Source: Anaerolineae bacterium (GTDB lineage Bacteria > Chloroflexota > Anaerolineae > Aggregatilineales > Phototrophicaceae). Taken from it: 64,000 nt of DNA. The notes below the pieces were generated by a model. That model was not told the DNA's origin, ran no database searches, and worked only from the letters and a program-made list of their open reading frames with translations. Positions 38,766-51,196 of this stretch are shown here, piece after piece. How positions within the stretch are numbered: the first letter of the stretch is position 1; the number at the start of each line of letters is the position of its first letter. The translations under genes and the position numbers were made by a program. The stretch lies in contig JALHNB010000031.1 of the NCBI GenBank assembly GCA_022843745.1, forward strand, positions 21,120-85,119, read 5' to 3'.

Positions 38766-39755
38766 ATGGTTAAGCCTGTTCACTCAATCAAAAATCAATA
38801 TCTTGGGATCAACGCTCATTTGCAAAGTAAGCTGCAAACGGATGGTGGATGGGATAGCTTCCATGCGATTCATCTCGGCCATCTCACTACAGCTATTCAG
38901 GTTCAATTGCGCCCAATGGGCTATGAAGCAGATATTGAACAATCCCTACAGATAAAGCATTCCGTTGACCCTGCCCGTTACCCTAAAGCTGACGTAATGA
39001 TCTATGACCCTGACCCGGGGCGGGCATTTCAGCCAGTGACAGCCCTGTCGTCTGCAAATACACAAGAAATCGTCATGCCGATTCCTTCACTGCTGAACAT
39101 TACGGACGAGCAAGTGGAATTTTATCGAGCAATTGCTATCTACAAAGTATCTGCCAGCCGTCAGGATCGTGGCGAACCGATTGTCTGGATCGAACTGCTC
39201 TCTCCTTCAAACAAGCCAACAGGTCGCGATTTTGAGAGCTACCGCGAAAAACGAACGCAAATTTTGCAAGCCGGGATCGTCTTTGTGGAAATTGATTATC
39301 TGCATCAATATCCGCCGACGCTTGCAGGTGTCGCGAATTATCACCCATATGGTAAAAACTCAAAACCTCAACTCGGCTCACACCCTTATCGCATTACGGT
39401 CATTGACCCGCGTCCTGATTTTCTGGAAGGGCAGGGCCGTTCGCGCCAGTTTGATGTCGATGACCGGATTCCCGTGATCGTCATTCCGTTAAGTGCGAGC
39501 GATAAGCTGGATTTCGACTTTGGTGCGCCCTATCGCAAGACATTTGAGGAAATGTTCTATGGCGATAAGGTAGATTACAGCCAACTTCCCGTCAATTTTG
39601 AGCTTTACAGCGAATTCGATCAGACACGCATTGCTTCACGTATGTTAGCGGTGGTGAACGCCGCGCAAAATGACGTTGATTTGGAGCGTGAACCGCAGGC
39701 GGTTGAGACCATACATCTAGGTAAAGCTTTGGAGCAAATTCAAGCCATCAGCTAA
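38766..39755 (+). CDS. DUF4058 family protein
   Basis: A 329-residue protein with the DUF4058 pattern: GGWDSFHAIHLGHLTTAIQ, then QLRPMGYEADIEQSLQI near the N-terminus, EIVMPIPS, and PIVWIELLSPSNKP in the middle, which resembles restriction-endonuclease-like folds (E-x-L-SP-x-NK). The family is common in Chloroflexota and Cyanobacteria and of unknown function. It is 34 bp downstream of the glucan synthase gene and ends 8 bases inside the end of the convergent lysK gene. Confidence 0.75.
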   Translation: MVKPVHSIKNQYLGINAHLQSKLQTDGGWDSFHAIHLGHLTTAIQVQLRPMGYEADIEQSLQIKHSVDPARYPKADVMIYDPDPGRAFQPVTALSSANTQEIVMPIPSLLNITDEQVEFYRAIAIYKVSASRQDRGEPIVWIELLSPSNKPTGRDFESYREKRTQILQAGIVFVEIDYLHQYPPTLAGVANYHPYGKNSKPQLGSHPYRITVIDPRPDFLEGQGRSRQFDVDDRIPVIVIPLSASDKLDFDFGAPYRKTFEEMFYGDKVDYSQLPVNFELYSEFDQTRIASRMLAVVNAAQNDVDLEREPQAVETIHLGKALEQIQAIS

Positions 39756-40848
39756 AATTCAGCCGTCCCAGCGCCTCCGCCAGCACATCAATCGCCCGCA
39801 AATATTCGTCTAGGTCGATATGCTCATCCGGTGTGTGATCGAGCGTCGAGTCGCCGGGGCCGTAAGCGATAATCGGGCAATTCCAGCGCGGGCCGACCAC
39901 ATTCATATCGGCTGTCCCAGTTTTGTACAAAAATTTTGGCTGCCCATTTTGTGACCGGATCGCGCCGCGCATCACCCTGCTGAGAATCGTATCGCGCTCG
40001 GCAACAAAGGCCTGCTCCGCGCCATAAGTTCGCACGGTTGCGCCGTCTTCTGGTTGGAGCACCGCCGCTACAGTTTCCGGCGAAATATCCGGCGGCAGGC
40101 GAAAGCTCATCGTCAGATTCGCGTGACCGTAAGCGCCATCCTGACCGCTGTGAATCTCGCGCAGCGAAACGTCAAGCTGCTCAAAGAGTGACGTGCGGCC
40201 TTCGTTGAATTTTGCCGCGTAATCACGAGCGCGATCCCAATAAGCGACGGCCTGTTCCGCTGGACTGAGGGATGGGCCTGCACTGTGCGCCATGCCGCCC
40301 GACCAGCGCCACTCGATCAGCAAACGGCCTTTATAGCCAAGCGTGATGCGATCCCACTGGGACGGCTCGCCGATGACGCAGACACGCGGCTGAAATTGGG
40401 TTGCGGCAAAATGCGCTCCCTTGCTGCTGGCGGCTTCCTCTTCGACTGCGCCAACGACGATAACGCGCACGTTTTCCGGCAGATTTGCACGTAAAGCAGC
40501 GGCGGCGAATGTACACAGCGGCCCTTTAGCATCGACAGCACCGCGCCCGTAAAGCAAACGGCCTTCAATTTTGACAGGCGGCTGACCGGGGAAGGTGTCG
40601 ATATGTCCCAACAAAACGACATCCTGATCGCCTTGCCCGATGATGCCGACGGCATTCCCGGCCTCGTCTATATAGGTTTTGTCGTAGCCGTGTGCGCTCA
40701 TCCAATCGACCAGTACGCGAACGGCATCTCCTTCGTGGTGAGAGAGGCTCGGCGTGGCGACCAGATCGTGTAGAAGCTGTTCGGCATCGGCGTTTGTCAA
40801 CGAAAAGGGCGCACCACTGTGCGCCCCTACAATTGGCTCATCATTCAT
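39748..40848 (-). CDS. lysK: LysW-lysine/ornithine hydrolase (M20 peptidase family)
   Basis: A 366-residue M20-type metallopeptidase: VVLLGHIDTFPG (His, Asp), GRGAVDAKGPL (bridging Asp), VGAVEEEAASSKGA (catalytic Glu pair), and a terminal His region (SRNGQ-type is replaced by PRWNCPIIAYGPGDS). It releases the finished amino acid from the LysW carrier protein. Last gene of the lysW operon. Its start overlaps lysJ by 8 bases. Residues about 6-16 (IVGAHSGAPFS) are encoded by a copy of the dispersed hairpin repeat, so the N-terminus has been altered by it. Confidence 0.88.
   Translation of the reverse strand: MNDEPIVGAHSGAPFSLTNADAEQLLHDLVATPSLSHHEGDAVRVLVDWMSAHGYDKTYIDEAGNAVGIIGQGDQDVVLLGHIDTFPGQPPVKIEGRLLYGRGAVDAKGPLCTFAAAALRANLPENVRVIVVGAVEEEAASSKGAHFAATQFQPRVCVIGEPSQWDRITLGYKGRLLIEWRWSGGMAHSAGPSLSPAEQAVAYWDRARDYAAKFNEGRTSLFEQLDVSLREIHSGQDGAYGHANLTMSFRLPPDISPETVAAVLQPEDGATVRTYGAEQAFVAERDTILSRVMRGAIRSQNGQPKFLYKTGTADMNVVGPRWNCPIIAYGPGDSTLDHTPDEHIDLDEYLRAIDVLAEALGRLNFS
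40807..40830. repeat. Dispersed hairpin repeat, copy 3, inside the start of lysK
   Basis: GGGCGCAC (40807-40814) pairs with GTGCGCCC (40819-40826), followed by CTAC. It starts some 18 bases after the lysK ATG, in the coding sequence, and keeps the reading frame. Confidence 0.75.
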
Positions 40849-42019
40849 CCAGCGAATCCCTTACAGCGTCGATCACCCGACGCAGTTCGTCGCGTGTGAT
40901 AATCAGCGGCGGCAGCAAACGCAGGACATTCAATCCGGCGGGGAGTGCCAACACGCCGCGTTCCTGCAATCTTTTGAGCGCAGGCGTGACCCGTCCGCGC
41001 AGTTCCAGGCCGACGATCAGGCCGAGGCCGCGCACTTCACGCACCTGGGGGTGATTCAATGCGCGTAATTCTTCCACCAGCCATGTTCCGATTTCGGCGG
41101 CGCGTTCTGGCAGATTTTCATCGCGCAATGCACTCAGGCTGGCAATCGCTGCCGCACACGCCAGCGGATTGCCGCCAAATGTGCTGCCATGTGAACTGGC
41201 GGGGATCGTGCCGAGCGATTCACGCCAGCAGACCGCGCCCATCGGCAGGCCGCCCGCGAGTCCTTTACCGAGCGCGATGGTGTCCGGCAAAATATCAGCG
41301 TGCTGGAAGGCGAACCAGCGCCCGGTACGCCCCAGGCCAGTTTGAATTTCGTCGATCACGAGCAGTGCGCCGTGTTCATCACACAAACTGCGCAGACCGC
41401 GCAAATATTCAAAATCGATGGGGTAAACGCCACCCTCACCCTGGACGACTTCGACGACAACCGCCGCCGTATTTTCGCTGATGGCTGCCTGTGCCGCTGT
41501 CAAATCGTTAAATGGGACGTGTTTCACCGTGTCCATTGTCCACGACTGGAACGGCTCACGATATTTTGGATTCCACGTTAGCGCCAGCGCACCGAGCGTT
41601 CGCCCATGAAAACCGCGCATCGTCGCGACGATTCCTGAGCGATTGGTCAGGAGGGAGGCGATTTTGAGCGCACCTTCGATGGCCTCCGCGCCGCTGTTGC
41701 ACAGGAAAAAGCGATTCAAGTCGCCGGGAGTCAGATCGGAAAGCAGAGTATAGAGTTCGGAGCGTCGATCATTATAGAAAATTTCCGGACAGGTGATGAG
41801 CGTTTGAGCCTGATGCGCAATGGCTTCCGCGACTGCCGGGTGGCTGTGACCGAGGAGCGCCACACCTTGTCCGCTGGTCGCGTCGATGTAGCTGTTTCCT
41901 GCATCATCCCATACGGTGCTGCCCAACCCGCGTACCAGTGCTAATGGTCGTTTTGGGTATGCGCCGGAAGTATGGGCATCTTCAATGGTCGTAATGGTTT
42001 CGTTGATTGCGTCTGTCAT
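40841..42019 (-). CDS. lysJ: LysW-aminoadipate/glutamate semialdehyde aminotransferase
   Basis: A 392-residue class III aminotransferase (ArgD/LysJ): SGAEAIEGALKIA, FHGRTLGALALTWNPKYREP, VVVEVVQGEGGVYPID, LLVIDEIQTGLGRTG and the PLP-lysine motif DTIALGKGLAGGLPMGAV. It transaminates the LysW-bound semialdehyde. Overlaps lysZ by four bases. Confidence 0.9.
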   Translation of the reverse strand: MTDAINETITTIEDAHTSGAYPKRPLALVRGLGSTVWDDAGNSYIDATSGQGVALLGHSHPAVAEAIAHQAQTLITCPEIFYNDRRSELYTLLSDLTPGDLNRFFLCNSGAEAIEGALKIASLLTNRSGIVATMRGFHGRTLGALALTWNPKYREPFQSWTMDTVKHVPFNDLTAAQAAISENTAAVVVEVVQGEGGVYPIDFEYLRGLRSLCDEHGALLVIDEIQTGLGRTGRWFAFQHADILPDTIALGKGLAGGLPMGAVCWRESLGTIPASSHGSTFGGNPLACAAAIASLSALRDENLPERAAEIGTWLVEELRALNHPQVREVRGLGLIVGLELRGRVTPALKRLQERGVLALPAGLNVLRLLPPLIITRDELRRVIDAVRDSLDE

Positions 42020-42837
42020 GATTGAAAAACCGTTCCTTCTCCGGCTAATGCTTGCTGTACAGGGCTGCTGACACGCCCATCACCGATAATCACGCGCCGG
42101 ACACCGCCGTTAAGCGCTTCCTGTGCGCCGATTACTTTGCGTTTCATGCGTCCCTGCGCCCAATTGAGCGCCATTTCCATCTGGCTCGACGGCACATTGC
42201 GCACGAAGCTGGTTTCGTCGGGGAAATTGCGATACAGGCCGCGCACGTTGCTGAGGATGACCAATTCCTGCGCACCGAGCGAACGCGCTGCGGCTGCGGC
42301 TGCGCGATCTCCGTCGATATTCAAAAGGCCATCATTGATGCTCATCGCCATTGGTGATACCACAGGCACACAGCCGAGTTCTAGCAAATAGCGCAGATAT
42401 TCGCCATCGACTCCGGTGATCGAGCCGCTGTAATCGTCGCGGATCATGCGTACACGCCCATCGACTACCGCGCGGATCGCGTCCTTGCGTTCACCTTTGA
42501 TAACCGTGTCCTGCCCGGTCAGCCCAACGGTGTTGATGCCGCGTTCGCGCAGGAGATCAACCAGTTCCGTGTTGACCATCTCGGCGGCGCGGACAAAAAT
42601 TTCGCGCGTTTGCGGGTCGGTGTAGCGGGATGTGTGGCCGGTAGGGGAGGTGATCGTCCGAACAGGTTGTCCTGCTTCTTCGCACAGGCGGTTTGCCAGG
42701 GCGCTAACGCCATGTACCACGACCAGCGGACGGCATCGCGCCAGGTTTGCCAGGTCTTCGCAGCTTGTACGCATATCCAGCCCTTCGCCACCGCCGAGTT
42801 TGACGACCAGAATGTTTTCAACGACTGTCGTAATCAT
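42016..42837 (-). CDS. lysZ: LysW-aminoadipate/glutamate kinase (ArgB-like)
   Basis: A 273-residue amino-acid kinase starting MITTVVENILVVKLGGGEGL, with VVVHGVSALANRL, ERKDAIRAVVDGRVRMI and LNIDGDRAAAAAARSLGAQELVILSNVRGLYRN. It phosphorylates the side-chain carboxyl of the LysW-bound substrate. ATG 42837 is preferred because AGGGGAC lies 7-10 bases before it; the longer frame from 42891 adds 18 hydrophilic residues and starts inside the spacer after lysY. Confidence 0.9.
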   Translation of the reverse strand: MITTVVENILVVKLGGGEGLDMRTSCEDLANLARCRPLVVVHGVSALANRLCEEAGQPVRTITSPTGHTSRYTDPQTREIFVRAAEMVNTELVDLLRERGINTVGLTGQDTVIKGERKDAIRAVVDGRVRMIRDDYSGSITGVDGEYLRYLLELGCVPVVSPMAMSINDGLLNIDGDRAAAAAARSLGAQELVILSNVRGLYRNFPDETSFVRNVPSSQMEMALNWAQGRMKRKVIGAQEALNGGVRRVIIGDGRVSSPVQQALAGEGTVFQS

Positions 42838-42894
42838 GTTGTCTTGTCCCCTGTGCCTTTGTGCGTTAGTGTCTTTGTATTTTTCGGTCAATTT

Positions 42895-43920
42895 TTAAGG
42901 ATAAATGCCGGGAAATTGCAGTCCGGTGGACTCCTCAAAACCCAGCATCAAATTCATGCACTGTAGGGCTGATCCCGCCGCGCCTTTGCCCAGATTATCC
43001 AGGGCAGCGATGACGACCAGATGATCGCCGGAAGCGTCCATTTCAAAACCAATGTCGCAGTAATTCGTCCCAGCGACGATACGCGGCTCCGGGAAGCGAT
43101 GCAGCCCAGTTTTTCCGCTGACCAGCCGGATAAACGGCTCGGTGTTATATGCGCCGCGATAAAGTTTCCAGATATCTTTTTCGGCTTTAACTTCGTTCAG
43201 GTAGCAGTGCGCCAATAAGTGAATGCCGCGCACCATCTCAATCGCTGTGACTGAAAAGTCAATTTTGACATCCGCGCCCAGCATCATCTGTACTTCGGCC
43301 ATGTGGCGGTGTCCGGTGGGGCTGTAGGTGCGCACCGCGCCGCTGCGGATCGGGTGGTGCGACCCGGCATTATGTTCATTGCCGCCTTCCGACGAGCCGA
43401 CTTTGATTTCAATCGCTGCCCGTTCCAGCCATCCCGCTTGTACCAGCGGCCACAGTGCCAGATTGACGGTGGTCGCGTTGCAGCCGACACCACTGGCATA
43501 ATGCGCCCCGCGTAAAGATTCGCGATTGCGCTCCGGCAGGCCGTAGACGAAGCGTTCCAGCCACTGCGGAGCAGGGTGAGCCTCGCCATAAAATTTTTGA
43601 TAAACGGCGGTGTCTTTCAGACGGAAATCAGCGGAAAGATCGATAATTGTGGGTGCGAGTGCGGCGTAGCGCTCGATTTCTTTAGACGCTGTGCCGTGTG
43701 GCAGCCCCAAAAATAACACATCGCACGGCTGCAAAGCGTCTGGATGGATAAATTGAAGCTGCGTCACGCCGCGCAAATTCGGGTGAACGGTGTAGACATA
43801 GCGCCCGGCCTGGCTGCGACTGGTCACTTGTGTCACTTCAACCTGGGGATGAAACAGCAGCAGGCGTAGCAAATCGCCGCCTGTGTAACCGCTTCCGCCG
43901 ACGATTCCGACCCGAATCAC
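42895..43920 (-). CDS. lysY: LysW-aminoadipyl/glutamyl phosphate reductase (ArgC-like)
   Basis: A 341-residue ArgC-type reductase: N-terminal [17 protein letters not shown] (NADP binding), [13 protein letters not shown], and the catalytic Cys in [19 protein letters not shown]. It reduces the LysW-bound acyl phosphate to the semialdehyde. ATGA overlap with lysX. Confidence 0.9.
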
Positions 43921-44795
43921 GCTGTCACCTCGATCATGCTGAGCGCGTGGCTCACGATTTCGTTAGGGATGTCCACGCCTGTGGGGGCGCTGCTGTTGCG
44001 GAATTCCATTGTGTGGTTGATTTCGTTAATCAAAAGCTGACCATCGGCATCTTCCAGAACGTCAATCGCCAGGATGCCGCCGCCGACAGCCTGTGCCGCC
44101 CGCATACACAGATCATTCAGTTCCGGCGTGACCGGGCAGTTTGAAGCCTGTCCGCCACGTGCTGTATTGGTGATCCAGTGTGGTGACGTGCGATAAATCG
44201 CGCAGATCGTGCGATCACCGACGACGAACGCACGAATATCGCGTCCGGGTTTGTTGATGTAGCTCTGTACATAAAAAGTGTGATGATTGTAATCACCCAA
44301 TGTCTGGCGATGTTCGATAATCGCCTCGGCGCTGTCGCTGTCATTCACACGCGCCAGCAAACGACCCCATGAGCCGGTAACGGGTTTGAGGACTGCCGGA
44401 TAGCCCAGGTCGTTGATGGCCTGCATCGCGCTGTCCGTATCGAACGCGACACGAGTCTGGGGTTGAGGAACACCTGCCTGCGCCAGCGCAATCGTCGTGC
44501 GCAGTTTATCGGCGCAAATGGACGCGGTATCATAGCGATTGATGGTCGCGATGCCCCAGCTATTGAGGATGGCAAGCGCATATAGGCCACGCGATGTGCT
44601 GACGGAACGTTCCATCACAATATCATAATCGCCCCAGGCCACGCCCGATGGTGCAAGCTGTCCTCGTCCGGCGGTCACGTCAAAATTCAAATCGCGATCC
44701 AGGATAATGTCCGGCTCGATGCCCCGTGCCTGAAAGGCGCTGATGAGCAGTTTTTCCTCGGCGCGGATGTGGGTAATGAGAATGCCGATACGCAT
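43917..44795 (-). CDS. lysX: LysW ligase (ATP-grasp, LysX/ArgX)
   Basis: A 292-residue ATP-grasp ligase: [17 protein letters not shown] (ATP binding), [23 protein letters not shown], and [37 protein letters not shown] (metal binding, RimK/LysX type). It joins the alpha-amino group of aminoadipate or glutamate to the C-terminal Glu of LysW. Whether it is for lysine, arginine or both cannot be read from this gene alone. It starts at the base before the lysW stop. Confidence 0.92.
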
Positions 44796-44966
44796 TTATT
44801 CGCCCCAATCCTCTTCGACTTCCGGCGCGAGGTCGAGTGTAATCGGGTTCAGGCTGATAATTTCGAGTTCCGTGCCGCAGTCCGGGCAAGAAATTAATTC
44901 GTTTTCCATCGCGTTGTTTGGAATGCTGACTTCGGCATCGCATTCGGGGCAGTGGGGTGCAGTCAT
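44796..44966 (-). CDS. lysW: LysW carrier protein
   Basis: A 56-residue carrier with a zinc ribbon (CPEC at 6-9, CPDC at 27-30) and the conserved acidic C-terminus ending EDWGE; the last Glu takes the substrate. Intermediates stay bound to it through the LysX-Z-Y-J-K route. It is the first gene of the operon and the ribosome site GGAGA lies upstream of ATG 44966. An attenuator-like leader lies immediately before it. Confidence 0.93.
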   Translation of the reverse strand: MTAPHCPECDAEVSIPNNAMENELISCPDCGTELEIISLNPITLDLAPEVEEDWGE

Positions 44967-45038
44967 CTTTTTGCGTTCTCCATTAGATTTTGCGTTGACA
45001 TCAACAAATAGGTGTTGCGTTATCGACCAAAAATAAAA

Positions 45039-45065
45039 CGCCGTCCAGGTCAGGTCTGGACGGCG
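45039..45065 (-). terminator. Terminator hairpin in the lysW leader
   Basis: On the minus strand CGCCGTCCAG pairs with CTGGACGGCG (10 bp, 7-nt loop) and is followed by TTTTATTTTT. It lies 73 bp upstream of the lysW start, so it would stop transcription before the operon unless prevented. Confidence 0.85.
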
Positions 45066-45096
45066 GCTGTTCTCACATCATCAGGGCGCAGCGCAA

Positions 45097-45162
45097 CTAT
45101 CCAGACCTTGTATTTGGCTTCTTGCTCTGCTTTTGTTTGCTGTCGGCTACTTCAAAAAACAT
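45097..45162 (-). CDS. Lys-rich leader peptide before lysW (21 aa)
   Basis: ATG 45162, 21 codons and stop TAG at 45099-45097. It starts MFFEVADSKQKQSKK, with four Lys at positions 9, 11, 14 and 15 and one Arg near the end. AAGG is a weak ribosome site about 9 bases before. The peptide itself need not have a function. Confidence 0.6.
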   Translation of the reverse strand: MFFEVADSKQKQSKKPNTRSG

Positions 45163-45213
45163 GATTCTTGCCTTGGTCTTATCCCGGTCTTGCTCTGTTC
45201 TCTTCCGGGTGAA

Positions 45214-45247
45214 TAAAAAAACCTGCGCGGAAAGTCCGGGCAGGTTT
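45214..45247 (-). terminator. Strong terminator upstream of the second leader
   Basis: AAACCTGC and GCAGGTTT pair (45219-45226/45240-45247) around a 13-nt loop; on the minus strand seven T follow. It may end transcription of the glycosyltransferase or serve as a first attenuator. Confidence 0.75.
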
Positions 45248-45277
45248 GCTTTGCTGGTTTATATTCCCATCCAAGCG

Positions 45278-45300
45278 AAAAACCCGAACTACTGGTTCGG
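45278..45300 (-). terminator. Short terminator overlapping the end of the upstream leader ORF
   Basis: CCGAAC pairs with GTTCGG around 5 nt on the minus strand, followed by GTTTTTC. The left arm holds the last codons of the upstream leader frame, so a ribosome ending translation there would prevent folding. Confidence 0.5.
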
Positions 45301-45357
45301 TTGGGTGCGCTTCGCCTTCTTGGTATGGGTTTTCAACATGATTTTTTGCTCACTCAT
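45289..45357 (-). CDS. Upstream Lys-rich short ORF (22 aa), possible first leader
   Basis: ATG 45357 to TAG 45289; starts MSEQKIMLKTHTKKAKR with five Lys in 22 residues. No good ribosome site. Its end lies in the short terminator. A weak promoter (TTGCAG, 17 bp, TATGCT; 45399-45371) precedes it on the minus strand. Confidence 0.4.
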   Translation of the reverse strand: MSEQKIMLKTHTKKAKRTQPNQ

Positions 45358-45445
45358 AAATACTCATGATAGCATAACGATGAAATGCGATCTCTGCAAG
45401 TGACGAATTTGCATGAACTTCTTTGTGCAAAATGCAAAAACTCGC

Positions 45446-45482
45446 TTGCGCTGAACGATCACTCATTTGCGCTGAACGATCA
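45446..45482. repeat. 16-bp direct repeat at the 3' end of the glycosyltransferase gene
   Basis: TTGCGCTGAACGATCA occurs at 45446-45461 (outside) and 45467-45482 (inside the gene, last codons and stop). A small tandem duplication of the gene end. Confidence 0.75.
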
Positions 45483-46788
45483 TTTCGTACTGGGAAAAAA
45501 TCTGCTCAACTTCTTCATCCGCTGTGCTGATGCGCGGTATGCCAGTTTGTAGGCGAGCGAGTAATTCAGGATCGGTCAGTAAGCGCTCAAGCTGGCGACG
45601 CAGGTCATCCACATTATTGAGTTCGAACACCAGACCGCTTTTTTCATGTTTTACGAGTTCGGCCATGCCGCCGAGATTGGTAGTTACAACGGGCAGCCCA
45701 ACACTAAAGGCCTCCAGGATAACCGTCGGACTGTTTTCGTACCAGCGCGATGGGACAACCAGCACGTCAAAAGAGTTGAGAATGTCCCAGACCTGCGACC
45801 CGGCATATCGACCATTCCAGCGAATCTGAGGATAGCTAACGGTGCTTTTTTTTAATTCAGCCGTATATTGTGGTGCTTGATTTTCCGGCCCCCAAATTTC
45901 GAATTTCAGGTCGTAACCCGTATCAATGAGTTGTTTGACAGCGCTCACCACCAGATCAATACCTTTGTGAGGCTGAAGCTGTCCCGCATAGCCGATCACG
46001 AGAGGATGTGCTGGCTCTTCTTCTAAATTTGGCTTGGGCTTGGGCTGCGGTCTCACCAGACCGTGCCGAATGTGCGCAAAGCGTGAAGTGTTGAAGCCAA
46101 ATTCGGCATATTTGCTAATCAGGAATTGCGATGGGCTGATAACGAGGTCGGCTTGATTGAGCGCCTCGCTTAATGTGATGCGGCGCTGCGCCACATCGTT
46201 GGTCTGATGTTGCAGCATCGATAGCCCATCAATGGTTGACCAGAATGCGTTAATAAGGCCGGGAGCATAGCGGGCTGGCAGACGATAACGCCGTTGTTCT
46301 TCCATCAGGCAGCGCGTACATTTGGCATCGCTTTCAGGTCCTACACAAAGCTCCCCATTGGGTTGAAGCAGATTAAGACGGGCGCACATGAACCAGAATT
46401 CCGTCAGGGTGATGACAACAGGTACGCCAAATTTATGCGCGATATGGATAACCTGCCCACCAAGTAGATAGCCGCTAATCATATGCACCAGGTCAAAAGG
46501 CTGCCCCGCCATGACTTGGCGGAGAGCATCACCAAGTGGTGGATAATCATATGAATTCTCGAAGTGCTTTTTTCCTTCTTTGGTAATGCGGTAGTAGACA
46601 CGGTGAATTTTGTACCCGTTTTCGGTAGTCGTTTCGACCCGAAAATTAGGATCATTAGCCTTTTCAATCGCGAACACTTCCACATCATGGTTATGGGCGA
46701 CTAACCAGTTCACAATACGTTCCGCAGCTCGTTCAGCGCCTGCGATATGGGTGGGTGGATAGCCATGAACTGCAATTAAAACGCGCAT
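45463..46788 (-). CDS. Glycosyltransferase family 4
   Basis: A 441-residue GT-B enzyme: N-terminal VHGYPPTHIAGAERAAERI, YLLGGQVIHIAHKFGVPVVI, a Cys-rich insert (CVGPESDAKCTRCLMEEQRRYR, C-x-R-C) seen in some bacterial GT4 proteins, and the C-terminal donor site VIGYAGQLQPHKGIDLVV with ENSPTVILEAFSVGLPVVTTNLGG (E-x7-E). It transfers a sugar from a nucleotide donor in polysaccharide or glycolipid synthesis. The partner gene upstream is a flippase, separated by 81 bp without obvious signals. Confidence 0.9.
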   Translation of the reverse strand: MRVLIAVHGYPPTHIAGAERAAERIVNWLVAHNHDVEVFAIEKANDPNFRVETTTENGYKIHRVYYRITKEGKKHFENSYDYPPLGDALRQVMAGQPFDLVHMISGYLLGGQVIHIAHKFGVPVVITLTEFWFMCARLNLLQPNGELCVGPESDAKCTRCLMEEQRRYRLPARYAPGLINAFWSTIDGLSMLQHQTNDVAQRRITLSEALNQADLVISPSQFLISKYAEFGFNTSRFAHIRHGLVRPQPKPKPNLEEEPAHPLVIGYAGQLQPHKGIDLVVSAVKQLIDTGYDLKFEIWGPENQAPQYTAELKKSTVSYPQIRWNGRYAGSQVWDILNSFDVLVVPSRWYENSPTVILEAFSVGLPVVTTNLGGMAELVKHEKSGLVFELNNVDDLRRQLERLLTDPELLARLQTGIPRISTADEEVEQIFSQYEMIVQRK

Positions 46789-49862: not shown

Positions 49863-50056
49863 TAGGTCATGTGGATTAGGGCAATTAAGCCATATGGTGC
49901 TTGCGTGAAAATTTGCGCAAACAGATAATATCTAGTAGCATTCTAAATACATCCAATATTAAGAGTTTGACAATTTTTTAAAGATATTTCTCATTTAGTG
50001 TGATATATCATGCTTTGTTTTGTTTATTGACGCTTTCTCACTGGAGGAGAACTCAT
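49863..50056. other. AT-rich upstream region of the fasciclin gene
   Basis: 194 bp, AT-rich. TTGACA at 49967-49972 is a -35 candidate but no good -10 is spaced from it. GGAGGAGA (50043-50050) is a strong ribosome site. Confidence 0.35.
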
Positions 50057-51196
50057 ATGTCGAAAACTTGGTTGGGAAGATTTTTTGTTTTGATCGTTGT
50101 TCTGTCTATGGCGTTAGCCGCTTGCGCCCAGGCAACGCCGACTCCAACACCGCGCCCCACAGAAGCACCACCTACTGATGCACCAACGGAAGAAGTAACG
50201 GAAGCTGTTGCCGAAGCCGCCACCGAGGAAGCCACAGAAGCCGCCACTGAGGAAATTACCGAAGAAGCGACAGAAGAAGCTACCGAAATTGCCGCCCTGC
50301 CGACAGACATGCCGACAGAAGAAGTGACGGAAGCCGCCACAATCGAAGTGACGGAAGCCGTTGAAATGATGACGGAAGAGCCAACAGAAGAAGCTACTCT
50401 CGAAGTCACCGAAGAAGCAACAGAGGTTGCCACTGAAGAAGCTACCGAAGTTGTGACCGAAGAGCCGACGGAAGAAATGACTGAAGAAGCTACCGAAGTC
50501 GTCACCGATGAACCAACGGAAACCCCAACGGATGAGCCGACAGAAACTCCGACTGATGAACCTACCGAAGAAGCTACAATCGAAGCGACTGAAGTTGTGA
50601 CCGAAGAAGCGACTGAAGAGGCCACAGAAGTTGTCACCGATGAGCCAACAGAAGAAGCTACTCTCGAAGTCACCGAAGAAGCGACTGAAATGGCTACCGA
50701 AGAAGCTACCGAAATTGCGACTGAAGAACCAACTGAAGAAGCGACAGTCGAGGCTACCGAAGCACCAGTTAGCGGCTCAACAATCGCTGATATTGTCTCC
50801 GGCGATCCTCAGTTCTCAACGCTGCTTGCGGCTGTGAGCGCTGCTGATTTGGCCGAAACACTGGCTGGCCCAGGGCCGTTCACCGTTTTCGCGCCAACCA
50901 ATGACGCATTTGAAGCGGCTTTGACAGCGCTGGGTGTGACCGAAGAAGAACTGCTTGCCAACACCGAACTGCTGACCAGTATTCTGACCTATCATGTCCG
51001 CAGCGGTGTGATCCTCGATACAACGATTGCCCGTCTGCCGACCATCTCGACACTCAACGGCCAGAAAATTACCGTGACTGTCAATGATGCGGGTGAAGTT
51101 CTGCTCAACGGTACTGTGAAGATCACCGCCACCAACATCGAAGCATCGAATGGTATCATTCATGTGATCGACGCAGTATTGGTGCCTGCGGAATAA
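50057..51196 (+). CDS. Fasciclin-domain lipoprotein with long Thr/Glu repeat linker
   Basis: A 379-residue secreted protein. Signal peptide with lipobox LAAC (Cys23), a Pro/Thr stretch, then about 220 residues of degenerate [16 protein letters not shown] repeats, and a C-terminal FAS1 domain (about 247-379) with [32 protein letters not shown] and [31 protein letters not shown]1 proteins mediate surface adhesion. The acidic linker would hold the domain away from the membrane. ATG 50057 fits the ribosome site; ATG 50000 adds 19 residues that break the signal peptide. Confidence 0.9.

Follow-up and report, generated by a model that had tools for sequence, protein, structure and literature searches.

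The lysW operon and its upstream region

The window, as the whole stretch of 64,000 nucleotides analysed here is called, carries on its minus strand a run of genes in the order lysW-lysX-lysY-lysZ-lysJ-lysK, from position 44966 down to 39748 (Table 1). All six were assigned by protein family models above cut-off, lysJ barely so; its best-scoring model is that of LysJ itself (NF042418), but this match lies below the cut-off of the model. A glycosyltransferase gene on the same strand ends upstream at 45463, leaving a gap of about 500 nt to lysW. Within this gap two modules with Lys codons are found in series ahead of lysWXYZJK, module A upstream and module B nearest to lysW. Elsewhere in the window, at 50000-51196 on the plus strand, inspection by eye revealed an ORF encoding a long Thr-Glu-rich repeat followed by an apparent fasciclin-type domain.

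Table 1. Genes of the lysW operon and putative regulatory elements upstream of it (window coordinates)
Feature	Position	Strand	Basis
lysW, amino-group carrier protein	44796..44966	-	NCBIfam TIGR01206 and NF041070 above cut-off
lysX	43917..44795	-	TIGR02144 above cut-off
lysY (argC-like)	42895..43920	-	TIGR01850 above cut-off
lysZ, [LysW]-aminoadipate kinase	42016..42891	-	NF010659 above cut-off
lysJ (argD-like aminotransferase)	40841..42019	-	TIGR00707 barely above cut-off
lysK, [LysW]-lysine hydrolase	39748..40848	-	NF003367 above cut-off
Candidate leader promoter, TTGCAG, 17 nt, TATGCT	45371..45399	-	by eye, weak
Leader ORF A, MLKTHTKKAKRTQPNQ, from ATG 45339, stop TAG 45291-45289	45289..45339	-	ORF translation
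Module A hairpin 1:2, CCGAAC / GTTCGG, leader codons with post-stop stretch	45284..45300	-	inverted repeat
Module A segment 2, antiterminator left arm AGTTCGGGT	45282..45290	-	pairs with 45241-45233
Module A terminator-like hairpin, AAACCTGCCCGGA / TCCGCGCAGGTTT, T-run 45221-45215	45219..45247	-	inverted repeat, 13 nt, 92% complementary
Leader ORF B, MFFEVADSKQKQSKKPNTRSG, ATG 45162, TAG to 45097, 21 codons	45097..45162	-	ORF translation
Module B antiterminator left arm AGGTCTGGA, last three leader codons	45100..45108	-	inverted repeat, pairing
Module B antiterminator right arm TCCAGACCT, within terminator 5' arm and loop	45052..45060	-	inverted repeat, pairing
Module B terminator-like hairpin, 10 pairs, then TTTTATTTTT (45038-45029)	45039..45065	-	terminator scan and covariation

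The first-pass annotation of this DNA had described a single attenuator in front of lysW, made up of a 21-codon leader with four Lys codons in seven positions, a 10-bp terminator with a T-run, and a perfect 9-bp alternative helix whose left arm consists of the last leader codons. All of these elements of module B are present. The Lys codons lie at 45138-36, 45132-30, 45123-21 and 45120-18, that is four within codons 9-15, and the nine residues of the left arm pair with those of the right arm without a mismatch. The description was incomplete in that module A, directly upstream, had been missed, so that lysW is preceded by a tandem of two.

Leader A could alternatively start at ATG 45357, six codons further upstream (MSEQKIMLKTHTKKAKRTQPNQ), and the module as a whole extends from 45357 or 45339 to 45215. 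Its antiterminator (45290-45282 with 45241-45233) comprises 9 pairs, two of them G-U. The terminator-like hairpin of module A is absent from the consensus scan because it lies outside the rules of that scan, which call for an unbroken stem and a short loop. A consensus scan for promoters upstream of the leaders yielded nothing above threshold; by eye, a sequence similar to the candidate promoter of Table 1, TATGCTAT, is found ahead of leader A in three other loci (L018, L160 and L161). Taken alone, the elements of module B are within chance: ten inverted-repeat pairs are found in the 511 nt examined, and the consensus scan of the lysW upstream region found 2 terminator-like sites as compared to a shuffle mean of 1.5. 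The evidence that goes beyond chance is comparative.

Conservation of the lysine leaders at lysW loci

Two sets of lysW loci were compiled, one of 79 loci with one genome per species from the best 80 of 386 relatives (75 being Chloroflexota by title), the other of 30 loci, own copy included, from 61 genomes around the window's own. After removal of 14 duplicates (identical over 350 nt) and of the own-genome copy, 95 upstream regions including that of the window were analysed. A unit was defined as a Lys-rich short ORF followed by a hairpin (-8 kcal/mol or lower) with a T-run behind it, and the rule was applied identically throughout. At least one such unit was found in 77 of the 95 loci and two in 34, as compared to 12 and 0 of 950 dinucleotide shuffles and to 4 and 0 of the 95 regions read on the reverse strand. 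The tandem count includes the locus L003, in which leader B is frame-shifted, and nine loci in which the second module has another peptide end (L013, L028, L079, L080, L096, L098, L100, L108 and L110); these ten lie outside the 21-row module B sets used below. A single module, mostly A-like by its peptide, is present in 43 loci. Moreover, Lys-rich short ORFs occur in 59 of 78 lysW upstream regions (counted without L019 and L059, which have short upstream sequence), whereas shuffles would yield 0.6 and the reverse strand gave 2. Lys is far ahead among the 20 amino acids in this count, the next by ratio being Glu with 8 versus 0.8.

In the 34 tandem loci the distance between the start of the T-run of terminator A and the first Lys codon of leader B is 44-97 nt, which seems to leave little room for a separate promoter between the modules. 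The usual ending of leader A across loci is KKAKKTQPD, that of leader B KKKQSKKPDxRSG. The KKxKK core starts 48 of 53 module A rows, the KKAKR of the window being among the five exceptions. Module B is alignable in 21 non-redundant loci, and in this alignment a stretch resembling TTGCGCTGCGCC is conserved directly 3' of the stop codon (45096-45085 in the window).

Eighteen of the 95 loci have no Lys leader unit, and 15 of these belong to one Chloroflexus/Oscillochloris clade, including L059, whose upstream sequence spans a mere 78 nt. A quick LysX tree of 94 rows served solely to see how the trait clusters; on it the labels tandem, single and none required 12 changes versus 41.4 in shuffles, and one clade of 32 rows is single throughout with one exception. 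We read this as an old tandem in the Anaerolineae-type lineage with loss of module B in one clade; the tree gives no proof of direction. Loss of the leader ORF in close relatives, which the first-pass annotation would have taken as evidence against attenuation, is seen in one near relative, L003, where the frame-shifted leader B (2845-2960) reads KKKQSKSR instead of the KKKQSKKP of relatives; L018 and L010, likewise near on the tree, retain both leaders. In L003 the TCTGGA arm and the terminator are still readable, and the shift could be either real decay or an assembly error.

Pairing and covariation of the alternative helices

For the following comparisons near-copies were thinned, from 74 to 58 modules A and from 23 to 21 modules B for the pairing test, and from 74 to 53 and from 23 to 21 for the geometry set; the module A alignment comprises 51 of the 53 rows, leaving aside L080 and L105 as divergent or of unsure type, and the row of L002 was retained even though the hairpin picker took a wrong, longer hairpin there.

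The fit of the two antiterminator arms was compared within and between loci. The mean duplex energy of the module A antiterminator is -18.0 kcal/mol within the locus versus -13.8 kcal/mol for permuted loci (58 non-redundant modules), and that of module B -16.8 versus -14.1 kcal/mol (21 modules); none of 5000 permutations matched the within-locus pairing in either case. Examples from module A illustrate the co-variation: the post-stop stretches GTCCGGGC, GTATGGGC, GTTCGGGC and GTGCGGGC are complementary to the 5' arms of the terminators of their own loci, GCCCGGAC, GCCCATAC, GCCCGAAC and GCCCGCAC, respectively. Furthermore, RNAalifold chose four antiterminator helix pairs when applied unguided to the 51 module A rows.

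In module B both helices covary. The score of the terminator helix over 21 loci is 0.357 versus 0.218 in shuffled alignments, with 0 of 500 shuffles as high, and that of the antiterminator was equalled in 1 of 500, scores that are to be read with the caveat that rows of kin can beat shuffles without any structure. Two cruder counts were less clear and near the shuffles: pairs changed on both sides were equalled by 49 of 500 shuffles for the terminator and 34 of 500 for the antiterminator, and further pair types by 56 and 162 of 500, respectively. Single folds had also raised the idea of a protector helix in module B, in which the Lys-Gln-Ser-Lys codons would pair with TTGCGCTGC past the stop and the Pro-Asp codons with TCTGG; pair counts gave no support, its covariation being 0.122 versus 0.125 in shuffles, and this helix was rejected.

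Ribosome geometry and leader codons

In 33 of 53 A leaders 12 nt separate the last Lys codon from the stop codon; in 17 of 21 B leaders the same spacing is found between the last Lys codon and the TCTGG arm. A ribosome extends beyond its A site by about this distance in the downstream direction. To predict how a ribosome would influence the choice between the helices, the transcript up to the terminator loop was folded with the ribosome footprint masked. Stalling at the Lys codons gave the antiterminator in 50 of 53 modules A and 21 of 21 modules B. When the ribosome was placed at the stop codon, the counts were 11 of 53 and 0 of 21, and the ribosome-free transcript gave 18 of 53 and 15 of 21; in three of the 53 modules A this masked folding gave an antiterminator in no ribosome state. 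Judged from these counts, the modules seem to differ in their untranslated default, A being mostly closed and B mostly open, a pattern that the two modules of the window follow in their own masked folds. When the complete modules of the window are folded, the lowest-energy structure contains the terminator in both ribosome states examined, including the stalled one. Antitermination would thus have to be kinetic, as is the choice between folds in known attenuators.

The leaders were also examined for signs of translation, with a mixed outcome. On the negative side, Shine-Dalgarno-like motifs precede only 17 of 52 A leaders and 13 of 21 B leaders, as compared to 13% of background ATGs. The middle codon of KKxKK encodes Ala in 31 of 48 module A rows and uses all four Ala codons, and Lys is encoded by AAG or AAA; of these positions the middle codon alone is unbiased, since the rows were selected for Lys. 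Overall 90% of the leader Lys codons are AAG (191 of 212 in A, 86 of 96 in B), as compared to an AAG share of 49% and 38% in the ORFs of the lysX region at A and B loci, respectively, and of 53 in 165 in eleven genes of the window, whereby the rows are related and the counts hence not independent. The preference for AAG suggests a chosen regulatory codon, and the codon-level pattern together with this choice point to leaders that may be translated. Elf and Ehrenberg tie the use of one synonymous regulatory codon to sensitive attenuation (PMC1183508).

Lysine leaders at homocitrate synthase

Covariance models of both modules were run against the 61 genomes, whereupon A matched in 36 and B in 19. 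The module A model had no match in any of the 12 relatives without LysW and none in 13 of the 49 LysW-bearing relatives, 12 of these 13 belonging to other families of the order. In the 33 genomes of the family that have LysW, 40 matches of the A model (E up to 0.001) are spread over 32 genomes, and every one is situated no more than 274 nt ahead of lysW (34) or of a homocitrate synthase gene (6); many lysW leaders had gone into the model, the homocitrate synthase leaders had not. Phylum-wide, the A model matched in 2 of 400 genomes, a figure that with 9 candidates scored per genome is no measure of absence; 20 of the 22 genomes listed in that search belong to families other than that of the window.

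In the window's own genome both models match on a separate contig ahead of homocitrate synthase, which is above its curated cut-off and is followed by genes for homoaconitase-type subunits. The two leaders end SKKDKKNKPD and KQIKQTKQTEHTSG. Both models also match before homocitrate synthase in three relatives, G008, G026 and G023. In G023 leader A reaches the contig edge, and in G008 and G026 leader B ends short of the TCTGGA arm. In a further genome, G007, two Lys leaders precede homocitrate synthase, both matched by the A model only. Altogether 28 homocitrate synthase loci were inspected. In fifteen, the gene follows lysW on the same strand at a distance of about 3.9-5.4 kb, and none of these has a Lys leader in the 450 nt upstream of the gene. 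The other 13 lack such linkage to a lysW of the same contig and strand; Lys leaders precede 5 of them and are absent from 8, including two partial matches whose true upstream region is outside the view. Where the pathway is split, putative attenuators therefore sit, in part of the lineage, on both pieces.

These leaders also bear on the question of which amino acid is made. The first-pass annotation had argued for lysine rather than arginine from the dominance of Lys codons, and this is strengthened by the Lys leaders of homocitrate synthase and by a separate ArgJ above cut-off in the same genome. Lys leaders at both lysW and an unlinked homocitrate synthase operon indicate a lysine regulon, not an arginine one. 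Two further observations were made in this genome. Between the genes for the large and small homoaconitase-type subunits of the lysine operon with the leaders stands a gene for a TMEM175-family potassium channel (L117, contig 41, 7158-7823; PF06736, E 4.6e-31). On contig 7 (L118, 24016-25251) a diaminopimelate decarboxylase (LysA) above cut-off is encoded alongside the aminoadipate pathway; it may serve a second lysine route or the diaminopimelate of peptidoglycan.

Proposed mechanism and alternative explanations

How could two short Lys-rich ORFs control the lysW operon? The region upstream of lysW very probably acts as two ribosome-mediated, lysine-sensing transcription attenuators in series, a prediction from sequence that extends the attenuation by Lys codons proposed earlier for module B and agrees with conservation, covariation, geometry and the recurrence of the same elements before homocitrate synthase. 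The region combines short Lys-rich ORFs, a terminator-like hairpin before the first gene, a covarying antiterminator that is mutually exclusive with it, lysine as product amino acid according to the family models, and a spacing that in the masked-folding prediction suits control by a ribosome. The leader ORFs would be translated, the hairpins would terminate transcription, a single promoter upstream of leader A would serve both modules, and the signal would be the charging of tRNA-Lys. Transcription would then proceed into the lysine genes only under a shortage of charged lysyl-tRNA.

Module A would operate in a trp-like manner, with segment 1, the last leader codons, pairing with segment 2, segment 2 with 3, and 3 with 4. 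Stalling of the ribosome on the Lys codons would make segment 1 unavailable, whereupon 2:3 would form in place of 3:4. In the untranslated leader 1:2 is predicted to form and the terminator would win. Module B would be simpler. Its last leader codons, usually TCTGGA, would constitute the antiterminator arm about 12 nt past the last Lys codon; a ribosome stalled at Lys would leave this arm free, one that has reached the stop codon would mask it, and in the untranslated leader the antiterminator is predicted to form. Since polymerase would have to clear both gates, the dynamic range would be wider. It could also be imagined, though we would sooner bet against this idea than on it, that the opposite untranslated defaults (A closed, B open) create a two-stage gate, which would check both for ongoing translation and for a shortage of lysine before polymerase is admitted to the aminoadipate pathway, with one A+B unit placed before each piece in that part of the lineage where the pathway is split.

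Alternatively, one module could be active and the other a relic or spare copy without regulatory function. The 43 loci with a single module, where one seems to be enough, and the frame-shifted leader B of L003 would fit such a scenario. However, module B retains its helices and Lys codons over 21 non-redundant loci, and A and B recur before homocitrate synthase in four genomes according to both models, with G007 having two leaders of the A model, which makes a relic unlikely. That the leader governs arginine supply as well as lysine was also considered, as bifunctional LysW systems are known from archaea. Against such a dual role, which is very unlikely, speak the codons, which are Lys and not Arg, the leaders at homocitrate synthase, the separate ArgJ, and the matches of LysZ and LysK to lysine-specific NCBIfam models above cut-off.

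Less probable still is that the Lys-rich ORFs encode small functional proteins and that the hairpins are ordinary terminators of upstream genes. Terminators after genes are commonplace and the glycosyltransferase gene ends upstream on the same strand, but what is conserved in the peptides is the Lys cluster and the structure-forming codons, the remainder being variable; moreover, each terminator has as its counterpart an alternative helix with the best fit in its own locus, and matches of the A model in the 33 genomes searched are confined to lysW and homocitrate synthase. Least probable of all, a lysine riboswitch (L-box) or T-box sensing lysine or tRNA-Lys directly, with incidental Lys ORFs, was rejected, since although both classes control amino-acid genes via terminators elsewhere, here Lys is kept as codons that vary between AAA and AAG at a common spacing of 12 nt, no Rfam family, lysine riboswitch and T-box included, reached its gathering score in the window, in the homocitrate synthase locus L117 or in the 18 leaderless loci, and under permissive settings 44700-45700 gave two hits, both to eukaryotic families that are unrelated and both far under the gathering scores.

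Relation to known attenuators

Ribosome-mediated attenuators control the trp, his, thr, leu and ilv operons of enteric bacteria. The mechanism predicted here is of this known kind: in both cases a short ORF with codons for the product is followed by a terminator-like hairpin and by an antiterminator that depends on ribosome position, and the four-segment layout of trp (1:2, 2:3, 3:4) is that of module A as well. In contrast to the enteric examples, the amino acid is lysine made by the aminoadipate pathway, the organisms are Chloroflexota, two attenuators stand in a row for one amino acid, and the last leader codons of module B themselves form the antiterminator arm. The first-pass annotation named no attenuator described earlier for LysW operons, but a study by Tsubouchi et al. 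of 2005 is said to describe the aminoadipate lysine cluster of Thermus thermophilus, including the LysW gene, as being under attenuation by a Lys leader peptide. The Thermus case is reportedly a single attenuator and belongs to another phylum than Chloroflexota. Searches of open-licence papers turned up neither a recognisable description of a leader-peptide attenuator for a LysW or lysine operon nor one of paired ribosome-mediated attenuators that serve a single amino acid in series. New is the conserved tandem for one amino acid, with modules predicted to differ in their untranslated default.

Related arrangements have been described. The mgtCBR leader of Salmonella has two leader ORFs in one transcript leader, as found here, each part of an attenuator, sensing ATP and proline; there the signals are different and the stem-loops unlike intrinsic terminators, whereas here both leaders carry Lys codons and terminator-like hairpins (PMC3641672). 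According to the same paper, Bacillus clausii metE is preceded by tandem riboswitches with two terminators, likewise two successive terminator gates before one gene, the RNAs of which, unlike the Lys leaders, bind two ligands directly (PMC3641672). In Sinorhizobium meliloti the short ORF SEP5, which is translated and lies in the 5' UTR of an amino-acid gene, contains three Lys codons, and its authors suggest an involvement linked to threonine and lysine biosynthesis; six Thr codons dominate in this ORF and the gene behind is an aspartate dehydrogenase, not a LysW operon (PMC10117765).

If the modules work as predicted, leader-peptide attenuation would be widespread and conserved among Anaerolineae-type Chloroflexota as a means of controlling lysine synthesis, and nature would have supplied a replicated example of serial attenuators that respond to one signal. 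Do tandem ribosome-mediated gates multiply the dynamic range or sharpen sensitivity, and why does one lineage have two modules and its relatives one? Since its matches in the 33 genomes are restricted to lysW and homocitrate synthase, the model of the Lys leader may also serve as a cheap genomic marker to assign LysW operons to lysine versus arginine.

Lys leaders were also observed at loci that stand apart by tree position or by title. Four loci outside the main LysX clade (L079, L080, L108 and L110) have two or three Lys leaders with terminators, which implies that the tandem is either very old or has arisen more than once. L045, titled a Bacteroidetes bacterium, has a lysW tandem of the Anaerolineae type and clusters with L043 and L055 in the LysX tree; it is possibly mislabelled or a mixed metagenome bin. 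In L072, a member of the Planctomycetota by title, a Lys/Ala leader (MQFVNKAKAVKAKGPPGSG) and a strong terminator lie ahead of lysW, a possible single Lys attenuator in another phylum.
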